Shown piece by piece: positions 12,012-62,067 of a stretch of 64,000 bases of DNA. The notes beneath the pieces were generated by a model. The model was not told the DNA's origin and searched no databases. It was given only the letters and a program-made list of their open reading frames with translations. The stretch is taken from the NCBI GenBank assembly GCA_018398585.1, contig JAGTTD010000001.1, positions 37,463,938 to 37,527,937 of the forward strand, in the 5' to 3' direction. Source of the stretch: Simmondsia chinensis. Taxonomy: Eukaryota > Streptophyta > Magnoliopsida > Caryophyllales > Simmondsiaceae. The position numbers were made by a program, and so were the translations under genes. The first letter of the stretch is position 1. Each line of letters opens with the position of its first letter.

Positions 12012-13620
12012 TTAAGTAGTCAAGTTGCACAAGCCAATTCTAGTTCTAATAGTATAAAAGATTTCTTCACCTATAGTTTTAGTGAAAATGTTCGCTAATT
12101 GATCATTGATGGGAACATATTTCACAATGACATCTCCCTTAAGCACATGATCATGAAAGAAATGATGTCTAATCTCAATATGCTTTGTTCTTGAATGTTG
12201 AGCCAGGTTTTTAGTTAAGCATATAGCGCTAGCATTATCGGATATAATGGGAGCATGGTCAATATGAATGCCATAGTCATTTAATTTATGCCTTAGCCAC
12301 AACATTTGAGCATAACAACTTCCACATGCAATATATTCGGCCTCGACAGTGGATAGAGCAACGGAATTTTGCTTTTTGCAAAACCATGACACCAAAGCAT
12401 GACCCGGAAATTGACAAGTGCCACTACTCGATTTTCAGTCTACTTTGTATTCGGAAAAATCTGCATCACTATATCCAAGTAGATCAAAGAAATCACATTT
12501 AGGGTAAAATAAGCCTAGGGTAGAAGTACCAACTAGGTATCGAAATATTCTTTTCACGACACATAAACGAGATTCCTAAGGACATGCTTGAAATCTGGCA
12601 CATAAGCATACACTAAACAATATATCAGGCCTACTAGCAGTAAGGTAAAGAAGGAATCCGATCATACCTCTATATAGCTTTTGATCCAACTTTTTCCCCT
12701 TTTCATCCATATCTAGCTTATGAGTTGAGCTCATTGGGGTTGCGACTGCCTTAGACTTTTCCATGCCAAATTTCTTAAGCATTTCCTTGACGTACTTGGC
12801 TTGGTTGATGAAAATCTCTTCCTTGCCTTGTTTGATTTGCAATCCAAGGAAGTAGTTGAGTTTCTCCCATCATACTCATTTTGAATTCCCTACTCATAAG
12901 ATTTGCAAATTCTTCACAAAGAGATGGATTAGTAATACAAAATACTATATCATCAACATAAATTTGGACAATAAGAATGTCATTTCTAGAGTGTTGGATA
13001 AAAAGTATGGTGTCAACCTTTCCTCTTAAAAATCCATTTTGCATTAAAAAGGAACTCAATTTCTCATACCAAGCTCTAGGAGCTTGTTTCAATCTATAGA
13101 GAGCCTTTTTGAGTTTAAAAATATGATTAGAAAATTTGTCATCCTCAAATTCGGGTGGTTGTTTAGCATAAACCTCTTCTTGAATTAAACCATTTAAAAG
13201 TGCACTTTTTACATCTATTTAAAAAAGTTTGAAATTTTTAAATGAAGCAAATGCATATAAGAGTCAAATAGCTTCTAATCTAGCAATGGGAGCAAAGGTT
13301 TCCTTATAGTCTATACCTTCCTCTTGGTTATAGTCTTAAGCTACTAACTTTGCCTTGTTTCTTACCACGTTGCCTTTCTCATCTTTCTTGTTACGGTAGA
13401 CCCACTTGGTACCGATGACTTGATGATCTTGAGGTCTATCCACAAGTTCCCACACATCATTTCTCTTGAATTGATTTAGTTCTTCCTCCATTGCCATTAT
13501 CCAATTTGCGTCATTAAGAGCTTCTTCTATGTTATTGGGTTTTTCAAGAGAGATGAATGTGGCTTGATGACAATATTTGGTCAATGCATGCCTTGTTCTT
13601 ACACCTTGGAAGGGATCACC
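12012..13620 (-). pseudogene. Copia reverse transcriptase and RNase H remnant
   Basis: On the minus strand the RT starts around 13584 with the block EALNDANWIMAMEEELNQF and GTKWVYRNKKDE. After a gap in frame it continues with QAPRAWYEKLSSFLMQNGF and the catalytic motif YVDDIVF (near 12950). A frameshift near 12830 leads to QAKYVKEMLKKFGM and the MIGFLLYLTASRPDILF block. RNase H follows, with GYSDADF near 12455, ALSTVEAEYIACGS (12395-12310) and HHFFHDHV; it ends with LANIFTK near 12085. These enzymes copy the element RNA and remove the RNA strand. Several frameshifts and stops make this a pseudogene. Confidence 0.85.
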
Positions 13621-13695
13621 AATGATTTGACTGGTTGGGTGACCCTTCAGGGATTTCTAATCTCGTGGCAGGTCTTCCTCTTTGAATTCTAGACT

Positions 13696-13986
13696 TTAGT
13701 TATCTCCTTTCGGTTAGGGTTCATTTACTAGGCACTAATGCACTGGATCCCATTAGAACTCCGAAGTTAAGCATGCTTGGGTGAGAGTAGTACCAGGATG
13801 GGTCCCTGGGAAGTCCCCGTGTTGCCAACCTTATAAGGTTGGGGGTCCATGGAAATAGCCTCTCGGCAGGGTTACACCTTGAAGGGGTAAGGCTGTGTAC
13901 ATCCACCCCCTAGACCTCGCTTAGGCGGGAGTCCTTGAGGCACTGGGTTTGTTGTTGTTGTTGTTGTTAGTTATCTCCTTTCGGTT
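13696..13986 (+). mobile_element. SINE with a 5S rRNA head and an RTE-LINE-like tail
   Basis: A direct repeat of 18-20 bp (13696-13715 and 13967-13986, containing tatctcctttcggtt) flanks a body of about 251 bp. The body has three parts. Positions 13716-13831 match plant 5S rRNA from its first bases to its last. Positions 13836-13950 match the 3' end of the LINE at 28921-29035. Finally there is a tail of ttg repeats. The insertion lies between the integrase and RT parts of the copia element. The flanking repeat and short-repeat tail are the normal products of LINE-driven target-primed insertion. Most plant SINEs have tRNA-derived heads, so the 5S head is unusual. The tail resembles that of the Au SINE family. 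Confidence 0.88.
13716..13831 (+). promoter_or_regulatory. 5S rRNA-derived head with internal Pol III promoter
   Basis: The segment contains gcactaatgcactggatccc, then gaactccgaagttaagcatg, cttgggtgagagtagtacca and ctgggaagtccccgtgttgc, colinear with plant 5S rRNA. The internal control region of 5S genes lies at about 13764-13806: box A at aagttaagcatgctt, then box C at gagagtagtaccaggatggg. Relative to 5S, about four bases are missing after the gatgggt segment. This would recruit TFIIIA, TFIIIC and Pol III. It is not a functional 5S gene because it continues without a terminator into LINE-like sequence. Confidence 0.85.
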
Positions 13987-14360
13987 CATCCGTTGGAGTT
14001 TTGTATTTATCTTTTTCTTGCTCTTGAGATGAGGGTGTGATGTCTATTGGTTTGATTATTATATCATCATCATCACATGGAATTCTAGAGGATAAGACAT
14101 TAGTTTCATTAAAAACCACATGTATAGACTCTCTACAATCTTTGTCTTTTTATTATAGACTCTATATGCTTTGCTAGTTAGGGAATATCCAATAAAAATA
14201 CCTTCATCTACTCGTGGATCAAATTTACCAACATTTATTTAACCATTGTTGTGAATGAAGCATTTGCACCCGAAAAGGTTTAAAATATGTAATGTTTGTT
14301 TTTCTACCTTTATAAATTTCGTAGGGCGTTTTCTTAAAAATAGGCCTACTAAAGCTCGAT

Positions 14361-15340
14361 TTAAGATGTAGCAAGCGGTGTTGATGTCTTTGGCCCAAAA
14401 GGATTTTGGTAAATTACAGTTCTTGCCATATCTTCAAGAGTTCTGTTTTTTCTTTCGACCACTCTATTTTGTTGAGGAGTTCTAGGTGCCGAAAATTTAT
14501 GGTCAATTCCAAAGTAATCATAATAATTCTTAAAGTCATCATTCTCAAATTCCTTTCCATAATCACTTCTAACCGAAATAAATTTTAAATCATTTTCATT
14601 CTGTACCTTTTCGCAAAACTTTTCATATTTATCAAATGATTCACTCTTATGAGAAAGGAATAGGCCCCAAGTAAAATGGGAGTAATCATCAACAACTACA
14701 TGTCCATATCGCTTTCCACCAAGGCTTAAATGACGAGTAGGACCCAACAAGTCTATATGTAAGAGTTCAAGATGCCTTGATGTTGAAACTACATTCTTAG
14801 GTTTGAATGAAGATCTGGTTTGTTTACCATATTGACATGCATCACAAATGTGATCTTTTTTATATTTTAGTTTTGGTAATCCTCTAACAAGATCATTTTT
14901 TGAAAGTTTTGAAACCAAGTTCATATGCTAGCATGTCCAAATCTTCTATGCCAAATCCAAGGATCATTTTCTTCGAAGACACTAAAACACTTTAATGAAT
15001 CTACACAATCAAGATTAATCATATAGACATTTTTACATCGTAGACCAACAAACAAAATTTCATTTGTTTTAGCATGTTTAACTATGCATTTAGATGATTC
15101 AAAGTTCATACAATAGCCTTTATTACATAATTGACTAATGCCTAGAAGATTATGCTTAAGATCTTTAACAAGTAAGACATCTTCAATGCAAGGAGAAGAG
15201 TTAGAAGCAACATTACTAATACCGATTATTTTTCCTTTCTTTTTGTCGCCGAAAGTGATATTTCCTTTTCTTAGCATTAGTGAGTGAACTTAGATTTATC
15301 TCCGGTCATGTGTCTTTAGCAACTAGTATCCAAGTACCAC
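14361..15340 (-). pseudogene. Copia protease end, pre-integrase and integrase remnant
   Basis: On the minus strand a protease remnant near 15340-15285 gives WYLDTSC, then a stop, then RHMTGDKSKF; the usual active site is DSGCSRHMTGD. Positions 15277-14921 give the region ending in WHRRFGHASI, the pre-integrase zinc-finger start. Positions 14924-14361 carry KLKYKKDHICDACQYGKQ (zinc-finger cysteines), LLHIDLLGP (first Asp), VRSDYGKEF (second Asp) and PQQNRVVERKNRTL (catalytic Glu). The integrase would insert cDNA into the host genome. The frame changes at about 14921. Confidence 0.85.
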
Positions 15341-27059: not shown

Positions 27060-27079
27060 ATAGACAAAGATAATTATTT

Positions 27080-28260
27080 AGGAGTCTCAGAGAACCAATT
27101 TGGATTTATGCTAGGTAAATCAACAACAGAAGCCATCCATCTCCCGAGGAGGTCCATAGAGTACTACAGAGATAGATAGAAGGACCTTCATATGGTTTTC
27201 ATTGATTTAGAGAAGGCATATGATAGAGTGCCGAGAGAAGTCCTATGGTGGGTCCTGGAGAGGAAAGACATCCACGAGTCCTACATACGAGTCATCAAGG
27301 ACATGTACAAAGATGCTCAAACTAGTGTGCTCACTACAGAAGGGGAGACAGGCGCTTTTCCCATTACTGTAGGGGTACACCAAGGATCAGCCTTGAGTCC
27401 CTTTCCGTTCATTTTGGTGATGGACGAGCTTATTAGGCACATTCAAGGGGATGCACCTTGGTGCATGCTTTTCGCAGATGACATAGTTTTAGTGGGTGAG
27501 TCTAGAGTGGAGGTGAATGAAAAACTAGAACTATAGAGGTTGGCCCTAGAATCAAAAAGTCTAAGGCTCAGTAGATCTAAGACAGAATATATGGAACTTA
27601 AGTTCAGCACCTTTACCAAGCCAAGCGCAGAAGTTGTACGGATTGGAACAGAGCACATACCTCAGAAAGCATGCTTTAAATATCTGGGGTCCATGGTGCA
27701 GAATGATGGCGAAGTGGACGCAGATGTCAACAACAGGATTAAAGTGGGTTGGCACAAATGGAGAAAGGCAGCGGCGATACTGTGTGATAGGAAATTCCCA
27801 CTAAAACTAAAGGGTAAATACTATAAGACAGTAATAAGGCCAGCTATGTCCTACGGGGCAGAGTGCCTGCCTGTAAAGTGTCACCAAACTCAAAAGATGA
27901 GGGTGGCGGAGATGAGAATGCTAAGGTGGATGTGCGGATACACAAGGAGGGACAGGATCAAAATGAGGTCATTAGAAGTAAACTGGGTGTTGCCTTAATA
28001 GAAGATAAGTTGAGGGAGCAATGTCTGCGGTGGTTTCGGCATGTTAGAAGGAGACCCACCACTGCACCTGTCAGGAGATGAGAACAACTACACATAGCAG
28101 ACGGGAAGAGAGGGAGAGGACGGCCAAAGAAGAGCTGGATGGAGACAATATGACGGGATCTTACCTATCTCAACCAAATGATGAGATGGCTCTAGACAGA
28201 GCTGTGTGGAGGACCAGGATAGGCGTACCCGATGTAGCGGTGTAGGTGCATTTGTTCACT
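27080..28260 (+). pseudogene. RTE-type LINE reverse transcriptase remnant
   Basis: Reading right, the frames give [58 protein letters not shown] and the catalytic box [10 protein letters not shown] (about 27466-27495). A stop follows at 27534, then [46 protein letters not shown] and [14 protein letters not shown]. After a frameshift near 27985 come [20 protein letters not shown] and GRGRPKKSW. These C-terminal blocks identify the plant RTE clade. The enzyme nicks the target and copies the RNA in place; the upstream endonuclease is missing. Confidence 0.85.
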
Positions 28261-28409
28261 TGTACGCTCGATCTAGTGCCACGACTCTACGGTATGCCTA
28301 TTCCACAGCTTGGGCATATGGACTTGCGGTCCCAGGGGCGGCCAACGGGGTTGTGGTATGTGGCGTAGTGGGGCCCGGCCTAGATAGAAGAAAGAATATA
28401 AAATTAAAA

Positions 28410-28660
28410 AGTTTTGCATGAAGTGGTTCAGGCATGTCAGGAGGAGACCATCCATTGCTCCAGTCAAGTATTGCAATCAGCTTCATACCACGCTAGAAAG
28501 AAGAGGATGAAACAGGCCAAAGGAGGAACGACTGCAGTCGTACGGCAGGACCTCACCCAGCTAAACCCACCGAAGGAGATGGCCTTAGATAGAGCTAGAG
28601 CTCGAGGGAGGACTAACACAGGAGTAGCAGAGATAGCGGCCTCACAATGCTGATTATTCT
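28410..28660 (+). pseudogene. Second copy of the RTE C-terminal coding end
   Basis: Translation gives [20 protein letters not shown], a diverged version of 28037-28080 ([18 protein letters not shown]), followed by Q-H-T--ER and PPKEMALDRA-like remains. The copy lies 380 bp after the first. The intervening 28260-28385 segment (ggcatatggacttgcggtcc) is GC-rich and unassigned. Confidence 0.6.
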
Positions 28661-28920
28661 GCCATTTATATGTTCATAGGCGTATAGGCTTGTTATGCAG
28701 TACCTTTCTACCTATACGCCTATCTGTCTATTATCGGCATATTTGCTTATTTGCTTAATTGGAATATTTGCTTATACTAGCTGTCTTGTAGGGAAGGTTT
28801 TTGCCTCGTAGTCTCCTCTAGGGCATTTTTAAGTTATGACTTACTCTTTTGCTTTCATGACCTATTACTCACAACTCATTGCTCACAGGTCTCCATGAGG
28901 CGATGAAGACTTACCTCTCA

Positions 28921-29046
28921 GGTTGGAGGCCCTCCAAAACAGCCTCTCTTCAGGTTGACACCCTGGAGGGGGAAGGCTGTGTACATCTATCCCCCAGACC
29001 CCGCTTTTGCGGGAACCCTTGAGGCACTGGGATTGTTGTTGTTGTA
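28921..29046 (+). repeat. RTE LINE 3' end shared with the 5S-headed SINE
   Basis: It contains gaaggctgtgtacatctatc, ccccagaccccgcttttgcg and gaggcactgggattgttgtt, in the same order and spacing as 13836-13966. The region just before, ggttggaggccctccaaaac, is also matched. In partnered LINE/SINE pairs this 3' sequence is what the LINE enzyme recognises. Confidence 0.8.
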
Positions 29047-36453: not shown

Positions 36454-37033
36454 AATTTTTTTATAATTTTATTAGGTAAAATTAATATATATACATATAT
36501 AATAATTAAAAAATACCCAAATGGGCCCGGGCTGGGTCCTGCTTGGGCCAGGGTCGGGCCAGGATCGGGCCGGGCTAGACCCCAAATTTTTTGGGCCCGT
36601 GGCCTGGCCCGGCCTGCTATAGTAGGGGGCCGGGTCGAGCTGGGCTGGGCCCAAACGAGCTGGGTCGAGCCGGGTTCTGGGCCGAGCCGGCCAACTAGCC
36701 ACCTCTACCGGTAGGATCCCGTGCAATTCACCCTTTTTATATTTTGAAAAAAAATTTAAATTTGTTTGACAATTATTTAAGAATCATCATCATCATATAT
36801 GTATTGTTGGAACAACTATGGTAAATCACACGAAATTAGTTAGGAAAATATAAGACATGTAGCAATATAAGTCACCTCTTCCTAGGTATGTAGCGAACCA
36901 CTTTTCTTAAGACCTACTTTGTTAATGCCGAAATAGTCTCAGAGATATAATTGTCATGTACTTAGTTGGATTACACAAATTACATTTACTTACATTTTAA
37001 TTCTTTTATACTTGCACAATGTTAAGTAATACA

Positions 37034-37299
37034 TGTGTGGGTAGTTAAGGGGGTTGGTTGTAGTGTAATTGTTTGTTACAAGTTGTTAATACTTGTACTT
37101 AGATATAAGCCAGGAGTATGATGTATTTGGTATCCAAGAAATAAATTGACTTTTCTCTCTCTTACTTTCCTAATTCTGATCTCCCTTCTCTCTCCTCATC
37201 TTCTCTTTCCTCTTCTCTCTCTCTCTCTTCCTTGATCTCCATGGCTGAAGCTCAGCCTTTCTTCTCTTCTTCTTCCCTTATCCAGGCTTAAACCTGACA
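37034..37299 (+). repeat. 5' LTR of the chromovirus
   Basis: 266 bp, starting tgtgtgggtagttaag and ending aacctgaca. It includes a ct-rich block tctctcctcatcttctcttt shared with the 3' LTR. Similarity to the 3' LTR extends a few bases further left, so the true start could be up to 7 bases earlier. Confidence 0.8.
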
Positions 37300-37302
37300 A
37301 AT

Positions 37303-37317
37303 TGGAATCAAAGCTCG
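37303..37317 (+). promoter_or_regulatory. Primer-binding site of the chromovirus
   Basis: TGGAATCAAAGCTCG, three bases after the LTR. One base from TGGTATCAAAGCTCG, the initiator-methionine-tRNA type. Confidence 0.75.
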
Positions 37318-37394
37318 ATCTTGAGCTAAAATTCCCTACAAATAGGAGCGTCAACCGAGTTATACACTGGCTGGAGGTAAAAGAAGGCCTACCA

Positions 37395-38555
37395 TGGTTG
37401 AAATAGAAGGTCAGGTACAAGGCATCGCACAGTAGATGGCAGACTCGCAACAGAGGTCCGAAGATCGTCACCAACAGCTTATTGAGGTCATGCATAGGAA
37501 CAACTCGCAGATGCTTACCTTGATGCGGAATGACTCATAAATGTTAACCCTAATTCAGCATATTGGTGGTTAATACGACACATGTAGCGAACTCCGCGAA
37601 GGATCTGGAAGTAGAAGTTCTTGTACCAGAGTCCATAGCTCATATGGGGCAGATTAATGCCTGGAAGCCTCCAATTTTCGATGCATGCCCTGTAACAAGC
37701 GGCAACAGTAATTCCGAAGGCTCTTTTGGAGGCAATAACTCCCAACCGAAGCCCAAGATGGATTTTCCTGTCTTTTCTAGAGCCAACCTTAGAAGTTGGG
37801 TTAGGCATTGTCAAAGGTACTTCAACTTCTACCGAGTTTTAGATGATCAGAAGCTGGGAATGGTGACAGCATACTTGGATGACAAAACTGATCTTTGGTT
37901 AGATGGGTTGATAGCGAACAAAGGTCGCATTGGATGGAAAGAGTTCGACACACGGTTTGAGGATCATGGTGATACTGATATTGTTAGCCAGTTCAACAAA
38001 TTGAAGCAGATCGGCTCGATTATTGAATACCAAGAACGCTTTGAAGAATTGAGGTCACACATGCTGGCCACTGACAGCTCCTTCAGTGAAGGATATTTCC
38101 TTTCGTCCTACATCTCAGGCCTAGATAAAGAAATTCAGCCATTAGTCAAGGCCCTCCAACCTAACTCTCTCTCAAAAGCATTCACTAAAGCCTGCTTACT
38201 CTCTCAATCCTCAGAGAACACCCTTCAAAAAGCAAAAAATCTCCTTAAGACCAGCACAAACCCTACATCAACTATACCCAATACTTCCCAAAGATATGGC
38301 CAAAGAAGAAGCAGATCTACCCAGAACTGGGCCAGGTACCAGTCACCCAGAAATCCGTGCTTATGCTATAAATGTAATAAGCGATACTACCCAGGTCATC
38401 GATGTGATAATCTAACCTTGTACAGCCTGGAGGCAGCTGAGCTGCTTAACCTAGGACCTGACTTAGAGCAATCCTCAATGACAGAAACTGAGGAGGAGCA
38501 GATTATAGAGCTTGTGACAAAAGCACTAAAGAGGTTTATGTCCATGCCCTCATAG
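37395..38555 (+). pseudogene. Chromovirus gag
   Basis: The likely start is the ATG at 37395, but stops at 37434, 37539 and 37573 break the N-terminus, leaving the open part from 37563. The Retrotrans_gag domain spans about residues 60-175 of the open part, with RSWVRHCQRYFNFY, WLDGLIANKG and IEYQERFEELRS. A CCHC-like knuckle, CYKCNKRYYPGHRC, is near 38352; the usual C-x2-C-x4-H-x4-C spacing is altered. Gag forms particles and binds RNA. The frame ends at 38555 and pol continues in another frame. Confidence 0.85.
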
Positions 38556-39100
38556 GGAATTCCTTCTCCAGCACCATTAAAATTCTGGGAGACCTACATA
38601 AAATATCAGTTATAATACTGATTGATAGTAGGAGTACCCACAGTTTCTTGGACCCAAGAATAGCCAGAGAAGTAGGATTTACTGTGGAGGATGCTACTCT
38701 ATTGGGTATCAAAGTAGCTAATGGGCAGACGATGTTGAGCAAACAACAGTGCCTGGCCAATTGGCAGATGCAGGGCCACAGTTTTTTGTACCGTATTAGG
38801 TTGATGAAGATTGGAGGGTGTGATATGCTACTCGGGGTTGATTGGATGAAGCAATTCGGTCCTGTATCGCTGGATTTTAACCAGCTTGAGATCAGCTTCA
38901 GCAAGGAGGGCAAAATGGTAGAATTGACTGGAATTAAGGAGAGTGGCATGCTAAAACTCTTCACTGGTCACAAGTTGCAGGGGCTCTGTCAAAAGAAGGA
39001 GGAGCACTTTGTGGCCACTTTGTTGCTGGTACAAGGCAAGGAAGCTCATGAGGTAAATAACTCACCCACCTCCTTGCTCATTCAGTTATTGTTAGAGGAG
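38556..39100 (+). pseudogene. Chromovirus protease
   Basis: After gag the frame gives IKILGDLHKISVIILIDSRS followed by THSFLD. The active-site motif should read DSGSTHSF, and the Gly is replaced by Arg (aggagt instead of ggg-agt), which would inactivate the enzyme. Further on are GCDMLLGVDWMKQFGPVSLD, the C-terminal flap region typical of Ty3 proteases. Confidence 0.8.
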
Positions 39101-40630
39101 TATAATGATGTATTTCTTGAACCCAAGTCACTGCCACCTCCCAGGTCACATGACCATCATATACCTTTAAAAACTGATGCTAAGCTAGTTAGCATTAGGC
39201 CATATAGGTACCATTACCTGCAGAAAGATGAAATAGAAAGGCAGGTGAAAGAAATGTTGGAGGCCTCGATTATACAACCTAGTTGTTCTCCATTTGCATC
39301 CCCTCTATTACTAGTAAGAAGAAGGATGGATCCATGAGATTCTGTGTGGATTACAGAGAGCTTAATGGTAGCACCATCAAGAATAAATTTCCTATCCCTC
39401 ATAGAGATGATCTCCTAGATGAGCTTCAAGGGGCCTCAATCTTTTCCAAGCTAGATCTCAGATCTGGTTATTTCCAAGTGAGAGTTCATGAGTCTGATAT
39501 ACCCAAAACTGCATTTAGGACCCATCATGGTCATTTTGAGTTTAGAGTCATGCCCTTTGAACTCACAAATGCTGCAGTAACTTTTTAATCCGTAATAAAT
39601 GATATCTTTGGGCCCTATCTGAGGAAATATGTCTTGTTATTTTTTGATGATATTCTGGTTTATAGTACTTCCCTTGAGTCTCATGTCAAACACTTGAGAG
39701 TAGTGCTGCAGCAACTCAGGAAGCATAAGCTCTTTGCAAAATAGTCCAAATGCAGCTTTACTCTGTCCCAAATTGAGTATTTGGGTCACATTATCTCTGC
39801 CTCTGGTGTGGCTATAGACCACACTAAAGTAGAAGTTATGACTTCTTGGCCTTCTCCTCGACATGTAAAAGAATTGAGATCCTTTTTGGGTCTCACTGGG
39901 TATTACCGAAAGTTTGTAAGGAATTATGGTAGCGTAGCTAAGCCATTGACTGACCAACTCAGAAAAGGGGGATTCAGATGGTCTGAGGAAGCAAAGTCAG
40001 CCTTTCAAGGTCTGAAGGTTGCCATGATAGTAGCTCCAGTCCTAGCCTTACCAGATTTTTCCCTACCTTTTGTCCTTGAGACAGATGCAAGTGACAAGGG
40101 GATGGGGGCAGTGCTTATGCAACAGGGTAGGCCTCTTGCCTTCTTGAGTAAAGCTCTTGGCCGTAGGAATGTAGGGCTGTCAGCCTATGAGAAGGAATTC
40201 ATGGCCATACTCCGAGCTGTTTTCAAATGGAGACGTTACCTTGAGATAGGCTGTTTTGTGATAAAGGCAGATCAGCAATCCTTAAAGCACTTGTTAGAGC
40301 AACGAATAACTACAGCTATTCAAAGAAAAGGAATGTCTGAACTTTTGGGTTTAGATTACACCATCCTTTACAAAAAGGGCAAGGAAAATACGGTGGCTGA
40401 TGCCTTATCAAGAAGGTTTTCAGACTTATGTATGGCAACTATTGTTTCTGTAGTTCACCCTACTTGGGTGAATGAGCTTGTCAAAAGTTATGAAGATGAT
40501 ACAATGTGTACTCAGCTGGTAGTTGAGCTGCTTATTGCCCCTGACAGCGACCCTGACTATGTACTTAAAAATGGAATTATGAAGTTCCATGGCAGGTTAT
40601 ATGTTGGCCAAAGCCATAATCTGAGAGCCT
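39100..40630 (+). pseudogene. Chromovirus reverse transcriptase and RNase H
   Basis: RT begins at about 39090 with LLEEYNDVFLEP and PYRYHYLQKDEIERQVKEML. A frameshift near 39310 leads to [35 protein letters not shown], and the catalytic box LLFFDDILVYS near 39645. Stops at 39586 and 39742 interrupt it. The connection domain reads EYLGHIISASGV, then LRSFLGLTGYYRKFVRNYGS. RNase H contains LETDASDKGMGAVLMQQGRP, YEKEFMAILRAV and VADALSRRF. The frame closes with a stop at 40630. Confidence 0.9.
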
Positions 40631-41901
40631 AACTTGTCTCTTCCATCCATTCTTCTCCTGTGGGAGGCCACTCAGGTATGAATGCTACTTATCAAAGGCT
40701 TAAAAAGCTGTTCTACTGGCCTCAATTGAAGGCTGATGTTAAGAGAATAGTAGCTGAATGTGATACATGCGAAAGAGGTAAATCTGAACACATTACTTAC
40801 CCTAGGATGTTACAGCTCTTGCTAGTTCCTAAGCAATGTTGGTCTCACATTGCTATGGATTTTATAGAAGGACTTCCCCTTTCAGAAGGAAGAGACACTA
40901 TCTTGGTGGTGGTTGATAGGTTAACAAAATATTCACTTTTCATGTCATTATCTCACTCTTTCACTGCCACTCATGTAGCAAGAGTGTTCATGGACAATGT
41001 CTATAAGCTCCATGGTTTACCAGAGAGCATTGTGTCTGATAGAGATAAGGTTTTCCTTAGACTGTTTTGGCAGGTGCTCTTCAAACTGTTGGGAAGTTCC
41101 GTTGACATGAGTTCATCATATCACCCTCAATCAGATGGACAATTCGAGAGGATGAACCAATGCTTGGAGACTTATCTGCGTTGCTTTTATTTGGATAAGC
41201 CCAAACATTGGAATAAGTGGCTTTCTCTTGCTGAGCTATTGTATAATACTAATCATCACAGCAACATTCAGCTCACCCTATTTGAAGCCTTATATGGCTA
41301 TGAAGCATCACAGCTGCACCTGGATGCCATTCCAGGCCTCATTCCTACAGTATCCTCAGTAGAAGACTGGTTTAAAGAGAGAAGCTCCACCCTGTAGCAG
41401 CTGAAATACAGACTTGAGCAAGCCAGGTCCAGGATGAAACATTTTGCTGATAAGAAGAGCTCTGAAAGGGTTCTGCAGCGAGTAGATTGGGTGTATCTGA
41501 AGCTGCAGCCCTACAGGCAGTCCTCAGCTTCCATTAGAAAGTGTCTCAAGCTTTCATCTAAGTTTTATGGTCCAATTTTGGTGTTACAAAAGATTGGACA
41601 AGTTGCTTACAAGATTCAGCTGCCACAAGGATGTCGCATCCATCCTGTATTCCACATTTCCCAGCTGAAGAAGAAGATTGGCACTCAAGACTTGGTCACT
41701 CAGCAACTTCCCAAGACAACCCTTCATGGAGAATTAAAGGTAGCCCCTGAGAAAGTGCTTGCCAGAAGAATTGTCCAACGACAGGACCAAGCTGCAACTC
41801 AGTGGCTTATCATATGGATGAACCTAAGTGAAGAAGAGGCCACATGGGAAGACTTTACCGCCATTCAAGCCCAGTTTCCTGATACATGTGTGGGTAGTTA
41901 A
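40631..41901 (+). pseudogene. Chromovirus integrase with C-terminal chromodomain
   Basis: The zinc finger reads GHSGMNATYQRLKKLFYWP and CDTCERGK. The catalytic triad is visible: AMDFIEGLP (Asp), IVSDRDKVF (Asp) and HPQSDGQFERMNQCLETYL (Glu). A stop at 41396 splits it. The GPF-like segment and HPVFHISQLKKKIG follow. The C-terminus (41740-41890) with VLARRIVQRQDQAATQWLII and EEEATWEDFTAIQAQFPD is a chromodomain, which in chromoviruses targets integration to heterochromatin. The coding end overlaps the 3' LTR start by a few codons. Confidence 0.88.
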
Positions 41902-42155
41902 GGGGGTTGGTCATAGTGTAATTATTTGTCACAAGTTGTTAATACTTGTACTTTAGATATAAGCCAGGGATATTATGTATTTGGTATCCAAGAAATAAAC
42001 TAACTTTTCTCTGTCTTACTATCCTAATTCTGATCTCCCTTCTCTCTCCTCATCTTCTCTTTCCTCTTCTCTCTCTCTCTCTCTCCCTCGATCTCCATGG
42101 TTGAAGCTCAGCCTTTCTTCTCTTCTTCTTCCCTTATCCAAGCTGAAACCTGACA
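41887..42155 (+). repeat. 3' LTR of the chromovirus
   Basis: 269 bp, almost identical to 37034-37299. The polypurine-like run gttaaggggg is included in both copies, so the exact start is slightly ambiguous. Confidence 0.8.
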
Positions 42156-42257
42156 ATAATGAAACCCAAAACAAAGTGAGAGTAAGATGACCGAGACTTT
42201 TAGAAGAAGAGAGAATGTAGATTTTCCATGTGTATCACAAAACAACAATGGTGGGGC

Positions 42258-61314: not shown

Positions 61315-62067
61315 ATGGTGGATTCCGAACCCGAACCTTCGACCCCCAAAGCCACCTTGCCTGAAACAGCCCCACCAACACCAGAAGGCGACCCTCAGAC
61401 ACCATCCTCATCAAAGCCATCATCTTCTCTTGTCCAACCCTCTCGCAAGAAGAAACGCGCCAAGCCCTTTCGCGTCTTCCGCTCTATCTTCCGCTCTTTC
61501 CCCATTCTCACCCCAATGTGCAAGCTCCCCTCCCTTCCTGGCGGTCTACCTGACATAACTCACCGCGGCAACGTGGGCAATCGCATCACGGGCACGCTTT
61601 TCGGGTACGTAAAGGGCCGGGTGAGCCTCTCATTACAGGAGAACCCTCGGACTTTACCCACTTTGGTGGTAGAGCTCGCCATGCAAACAAGTGTTCTACA
61701 AAAGGAGTTGAGTTCTGGGATGGTGAGGATTGCGTTGGAATGTGAGAAGAGACAGGAGAAAGAGAAGATGAAGATTCTAGAAGAGCCCTTATGGACTATG
61801 TACTGTAATGGGAAGAAGACGGGGTATGGGGTAAAAAGGGAAGCTACAGAGGAAGATTTGAATGTAATGGAGCTGCTAAGGGCGACATCAATGGGCGCTG
61901 GGGTGCTTCCAGGGAACCCAGAAATTGAGGGGTCAGATGGAGAGTTGGCGTACATGAGGGCTCATTTTGAGCATGTTGTGGGTTCAAAGGATTCTGAGAC
62001 ATTGTATATGTTAAGCCCTGAGGGGAATAGTGGGCCTGAGCTAAGTATTTTCTTTGTCAGGATTTGA
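61315..62067 (+). CDS. MIZU-KUSSEI 1-like protein (DUF617 family)
   Basis: A single uninterrupted 250-codon frame without introns, as usual in this family. Residues 1-70 are Pro/Ser-rich and basic (PSRKKKRAKPFRVFRSIFRS). The DUF617 domain runs from about residue 85 to the end: NRITGTLFGYVKGRVSLSLQ, LVVELAMQTSVLQKELSSGM, EEPLWTMYCNGKKTGYGVKR, SMGAGVLPG, ELAYMRAHFEHVVGSKDSET and the terminal GPELSIFFVRI. This matches the whole domain order of MIZ1, a land-plant protein needed for root hydrotropism in Arabidopsis and reported at the endoplasmic reticulum; most paralogues have no known role. The start at 61315 (gccATGG) is the first ATG of the frame. This is the only intact host gene in the window. 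Confidence 0.93.
   Translation: MVDSEPEPSTPKATLPETAPPTPEGDPQTPSSSKPSSSLVQPSRKKKRAKPFRVFRSIFRSFPILTPMCKLPSLPGGLPDITHRGNVGNRITGTLFGYVKGRVSLSLQENPRTLPTLVVELAMQTSVLQKELSSGMVRIALECEKRQEKEKMKILEEPLWTMYCNGKKTGYGVKREATEEDLNVMELLRATSMGAGVLPGNPEIEGSDGELAYMRAHFEHVVGSKDSETLYMLSPEGNSGPELSIFFVRI

Follow-up and report, generated by a model that had tools for sequence, protein, structure and literature searches.

A probable 5S rRNA-headed SINE family with an RTE-type LINE tail in the jojoba genome

Described 5S-bearing elements and the jojoba locus

SINEs with a 5S rRNA head, known as SINE3, are reported from fish, bats, the springhare, a beetle and moths in the passages of the literature available to us (PMC7245038, PMC8010984, PMC3272025). 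The family described here from jojoba (Simmondsia chinensis) resembles them in its 5S head with boxes A, IE and C, its LINE-type tail and its target duplications, but SINE3 elements come from animals and the present family from a eudicot, and the comparison is one of descriptions. BovB is a LINE of the RTE clade. As given in the portions of the sources consulted, Ped-1 of the springhare joins a 5S head to a BovB tail (PMC3747384), and HaSE3 of a moth has a 5S head and an RTE-type tail (PMC7245038); both combine a 5S head with an RTE-clade tail as the plant family does, though with a different LINE and in a different kingdom. 5S rRNA-related SINEs are also mentioned outside animals, for Aspergillus fumigatus (PMC5063351, consulted in excerpt), but these elements are fungal and are likened to ours by description.

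Plant SINEs are said to be 'derived from tRNAs' (PMC9033089), or 'nearly all' of them to be so (PMC10741241), in the available text of both papers. Such elements (TS, Au, SolS) carry boxes A and B, whereas here 5S sequence makes up the full length of the head. The tobacco TS SINE has a tail like that of the jojoba family, its last ~100 nt being nearly those of its partner, the RTE LINE RTE-1_Stu, with TTG-repeat ends in both, according to the part of the source seen (PMC3747384); TS has a tRNA head, however, and this likeness too is by description. The Cassandra TRIM is likewise a plant retroelement with 5S sequence, but it is an LTR element without a LINE tail. One paper speaks of 5S in SINE3 'including plants', but in the passage available it cites the Cassandra paper (PMC3095306). 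In the titles, abstract openings and passages of the searched literature, no description of a plant 5S-headed SINE was recognised. Like SINE3 in its head and like TS in its tail, the family is, as far as this literature shows, undescribed for plants; the prediction of a new or little-known plant family stands, with 'new' to be read against the searched literature only.

The element lies in a 64,000-nt stretch of the jojoba assembly, hereafter the window (Table 1). Several features had been predicted from its sequence and were recovered: a body of 251 bp, a (TTG)n tail, and a target duplication, expected at 18–20 bp and found to be 20 bp, whose first 2–3 bases could equally be read as part of the TTG tail. 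Full-length 5S sequence had been placed right after the duplication, and the Rfam model RF00001 matches at 13713–13830 over model positions 1–120 (56.4 bits against a gathering score of 38, E 4e-9), overlapping the duplication by its first 3 bases, with the element starting at 13716. This was the only Rfam match at gathering scores in the 64-kb window. The insertion splits a minus-strand copia pol between its integrase (rve, 7.8e-10) and its reverse transcriptase (RVT_2, 4.6e-9); when the copia flanks are joined without the insert, one frame continues across the site, with other stops present in that frame. The window copy contains no long frame among its open reading frames, a 62-aa antisense translation gave no protein match, and the whole copy folded as RNA was no stabler than its shuffles (z 1.09; 178/200 shuffles at least as stable). 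It is missing 4 nt (GACC, 5S positions ~89–92, in the C box) that are present in the 40-copy consensus.

That the head is what remains of a 5S gene, or spilled over from a tandem 5S array, would explain its match to the Rfam 5S model, but this is contradicted by the duplication in copia, the LINE tail and the dispersed copies described below. The host 5S genes also argue against it: of the 47 best-scoring, 46 fall in two stretches of contig C8 and the other on C29, and helix I is different in those read. We give this reading no credence, and the claim that the interrupted pol marks a mobile element and no 5S remnant in place is upheld. Elsewhere in the window, a gypsy-like element was recognised by eye at 37029–42156, with a 93% identical repeat pair (37029–37300 and 41882–42156) that probably represents its LTRs, and a DUF617 (MIZU-KUSSEI 1-like) gene lies at 61315–62067, the best of 120 listed matches, from Macadamia, being 82% identical across 85% of the query.

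Table 1. Features of the element, its insertion site and the LINE remnant in the window (window coordinates)
Feature	Position	Strand	Basis or remark
5S-headed SINE	13716..13966	+	251 bp; 39 others among 40 scored genome matches near full length
Left target-site duplication	13696..13715	.	20 bp, TTAGTTATCTCCTTTCGGTT; 20/20 identical to 13967-13986
Right target-site duplication	13967..13986	.	20 bp, TTAGTTATCTCCTTTCGGTT
5S rRNA-derived head	13716..13835	+	RF00001 match
Box A of 5S internal promoter	13765..13779	+	5S positions 50-64; alignment and consensus
Intermediate element (IE)	13782..13787	+	5S positions 67-72; alignment
Box C	13795..13808	+	5S positions 80-97; 4 nt missing here, not in consensus
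LINE-derived tail	13836..13948	+	consensus 78-90% identical to 9 LINE 3' ends
Hairpin loop TTAG, LINE counterpart TTTT	13921..13924	+	loop counts in 94 SINE copies and 9 LINE tails
(TTG)n 3' repeat	~13949..13966	+	by sequence; common to LINE tails
Copia integrase region, upstream part of split pol	14361..14924	-	rve 7.8e-10
Reverse transcriptase piece, decayed partner-type LINE	27069..27533	+	RVT_1 1.1e-22; one internal stop
Partner-type LINE 3' end, tail common with SINE	28920..29045	+	BLAST and comparison of 9 LINE ends
TTTT, last hairpin loop of window LINE tail	29005..29008	+	sequence

A dispersed two-part family and its insertion marks

The same assembly (831 Mb in 35 contigs) was searched for further copies. 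A 24-nt query across the junction of 5S and LINE sequence, allowing ≤2 mismatches, occurred 2,952 + 2,740 = 5,692 times, compared to 0 for the reversed control. The whole-element query gave 8,831 first-look candidates, 40 of which were scored; all 40, on 21 of the 35 contigs, covered almost all of the 258-nt query, starting at base 1–8 and ending at base 250–258, and the 39 matches other than the window copy were 88–90% identical. Their consensus is ~257 nt long, and at 257 nt each the family would make up ~0.18% of the genome if all copies were full length, copies without the junction falling outside this count. Picks made with one half only led to the same two-part element: among 40 matches to the tail alone, 30/30 read carry a 5S head, which is truncated in 9 of them, and among 40 matches to the head alone, 20/20 read, all at new places, carry the LINE tail, one only to consensus position 212. 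A single template-switch product, in which 5S rRNA was joined to a LINE end in one insertion without giving rise to a family, would look like the window copy if that copy stood alone. Such a one-off chimera is, however, at odds with a junction found 5,692 times and with both halves in every pick read, and we consider it exceedingly improbable; the outcome that would have spoken for it, a single copy or 5S on varied tails, was not seen. A one-off template switch may instead describe the founder of the family. The window element is very probably one copy of a large family of SINEs in which a 5S rRNA head is joined to the tail of an RTE-type LINE.

Several marks of retrotransposition accompany the copies. 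First, counting duplications at a score of 9.5 or more in strict windows, and taking flanks paired across different copies as the control, we found a target duplication in 22/40 copies, compared to 2/400 mismatched flank pairs, and in 13 of 20 exact-junction copies picked by their order of position on contig C1 (the C1 set), compared to 3/380. One of the 13 (L234) lies 18 nt from the start, and 18/40 and 7/20 copies are without a clear duplication. Second, the best flanking repeat ends ≤3 nt from the element's first base, AGGGTTCATTTACC, in 33/40 copies, and the flanks of the 40 copies are mutually unrelated except for 5 short matches. Third, 5'-truncated copies have a duplication at the break in 4/6 cases in the C1 set and, in another set, clearly in 2/9. 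It had been expected that copies would be dispersed, have duplications of their own and begin at the same 5S base, and this was borne out within the genome of origin. Two observations on placement may be added: on C1 and C2, exact-junction copies crowd towards the contig ends, with 48 of the 92 listed there in the outer 10% at each end (hand count), and at C8:29965460–29965880 a SINE copy immediately follows a tail fragment from a second copy.

These marks also bear on the reading as a Cassandra-type element, a miniature LTR retrotransposon whose LTRs carry 5S sequence, or as a solo LTR from such an element. A Cassandra target duplication measures 5 bp. At the window locus the duplication is 20 bp, and the SINE has a (TTG)n end and a LINE-homologous tail; there is no LTR pair, the repeats in 13600–14100 being the 20-bp duplication and a 15-nt pair. 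Cassandra is a known plant element with 5S sequence, as the part of PMC10853983 consulted states, but as an explanation of this locus it has next to no likelihood.

On average, copies differ from the consensus by 6.2% among the 40 best matches and by 9.4% (4.7–15.1%) in the C1 set, both values being biased downward by the selection of copies. With 7e-9 substitutions per site and year, the age of the C1 set would come to roughly 13 million years. Consensus position 213, which is G in 45 and T in 24 of 74 aligned copies, suggests two subfamilies. Outside this genome, the consensus junction had 0 matches in public collections, and two patterns had 0 matches against public genome contigs. A loose pattern matched at least 120 stretches in a public viral contig collection, where two other patterns had 3 and 0 matches, and BLAST of the element against 123 loci taken from public collections returned a single 19-nt match.

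Origins of the head and the tail

The 5S internal promoter boxes were located with a 5S numbering that we take to be box A at 50–64, IE at 67–72 and box C at 80–97. Between positions 18 and 113, the SINE consensus is identical to a host C8 5S gene at 92/96 sites, and at 45/48 over 50–97. Promoter positions 50–97 are not conserved in excess of the rest: the window copy is changed at 8/48 of them, compared to 14/72 outside (p 0.81), and promoter bins among the 40 copies gave no clear excess conservation either.

T39 and A49 are common to the SINE consensus and the host 5S genes, while Arabidopsis 5S has C at both positions according to a printed probe (PMC7412053, seen in part). Since these two states are as in the host, they point to capture of the 5S head from this plant's lineage. 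Because of such host-like 5S states in the head, the plant 5S-SINE is also presumably of independent origin from SINE3, from the plant's own 5S. At position 81 the SINE has G, as does Arabidopsis, and the host 5S genes read have A, a single site that hints weakly at an old capture. A wider version, which placed the capture ahead of several changes in the host 5S, was scaled down because of its dependence on an uncertain reference sequence. The first helix of the 5S structure differs as well: the SINE can pair AGGGTT/AACCCT in helix I, where the host 5S pairs GGGTGC/GCACCC, and the commonest pair is retained in 28 to 39 of 40 copies at each of the six SINE pairs. As a separate observation, behind the lone 5S gene at C29:34924400–34925200 comes another 5S-like stretch, whose ends are altered and which may be a Cassandra LTR.

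The tail had been predicted to be RTE-like. BLAST within the window aligned 13836–13961 with 28920–29045 at 82% over 126 nt (E 9e-31), the second stretch being the 3' end of a LINE that has no 5S head in the window. This LINE type is abundant, with 150/150 scored matching out of 9,222 first-look candidates. We read the 3' ends of 8 of the 150, chosen by score or for a long open frame, together with that of the window LINE, and all 9 carry the SINE tail and (TTG)n, which favours the predicted tail. Because of its TTG end, we call the partner LINE RTE-type. In all seven flowering-plant RTE families tabulated in the section of PMC3747384 available to us, the repeat is of a non-A kind, either (TTG)n or (TTGATG)n. 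RVT_1 is the sole Pfam match of the LINE; its C-terminal pieces matched no Pfam family. By eye, the C-terminal part of the LINE protein is present twice, in different places, within window positions 27990–28640, as if partly duplicated.

Pol III stops at a run of four T (T4). The last hairpin loop of the tail reads TTTT in 9/9 LINE tails, compared to 0/94 SINE copies read, where it is TTAG in 53, TTAT in 28 and another sequence or a gap in 13; the rate on the SINE side rests on these 94 copies. TTTT occurs anywhere in the SINE body in 4/94 copies (6/40 and 1/20 under looser bounds, 4/74 in a further count), and the family consensus is without a T4 run. Genome-wide, the LINE context reads GCTTTTG 58 times and GCTTAKG once, and the SINE context reads GCTTTTG 23 times. 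Since T4 stops Pol III and the SINE loops read are without TTTT, the tail looks adapted to Pol III; the loop state could also come by descent from a LINE subfamily without T4. The loop further bears on a non-autonomous RTE derivative transcribed by Pol II, with the 5S head as a passenger. That the tail is LINE sequence and that promoter positions show no excess conservation would fit such a passenger, but starts cluster at the head's first base, the consensus boxes are nearly intact and the SINE copies read are without the TTTT of the LINE tails, which makes this account unlikely compared to a SINE with a 5S head and an RTE-type tail.

A proposed cycle and its implications

The family, its two-part structure, its duplications and truncations, the tail common with the LINE and the T4-free consensus are legible in the genomic sequence, from which we infer Pol III transcription, use of the partner LINE's enzyme and a template switch. 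Pol III, recruited via the 5S internal promoter (boxes A, IE and C), would start at the first base of the head, and the transcript would take in the LINE-derived tail and (UUG)n before ending at a T-run in the flank. The LINE reverse transcriptase would then recognise its own 3' end on the SINE RNA and insert a copy at a nicked target site. Duplications of ~10–21 bp would result and, where the enzyme at times stops early, 5'-truncated copies. The family probably began with a template switch in which the LINE enzyme passed from its own RNA to 5S rRNA.

Alu uses SRP proteins to reach ribosomes. By analogy, the RNA of the 5S-SINE might be under selection both as a 5S-like particle and as a Pol III product, with helix I rebuilt and the TTTT loop turned into TTAG or TTAT, and may use 5S-binding proteins (TFIIIA, uL18/RPL5) in like manner to reach the ribosomes that translate the LINE enzyme; an overlooked class of plant elements may also exist, 5S hits being filtered as rRNA. 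We offer this proposal as speculative and rather doubtful. A step of AnnoSINE drops SINE candidates that resemble known RNAs, according to the portion of PMC8825457 consulted, and such filtering could miss 5S-headed families.

A 5S-headed SINE has been proposed as the source of the 5S sequence in Cassandra LTRs, a hypothesis cited in the part of PMC10886601 seen, and the jojoba family is an element of that kind, the correspondence being by kind only. With more than 5,000 junction copies, the family shows that 5S-headed elements have arisen in a plant as well. The SINE and its partner LINE, paired in one genome, could serve as a natural experiment on the adaptation of a LINE tail to Pol III through the loss of TTTT.
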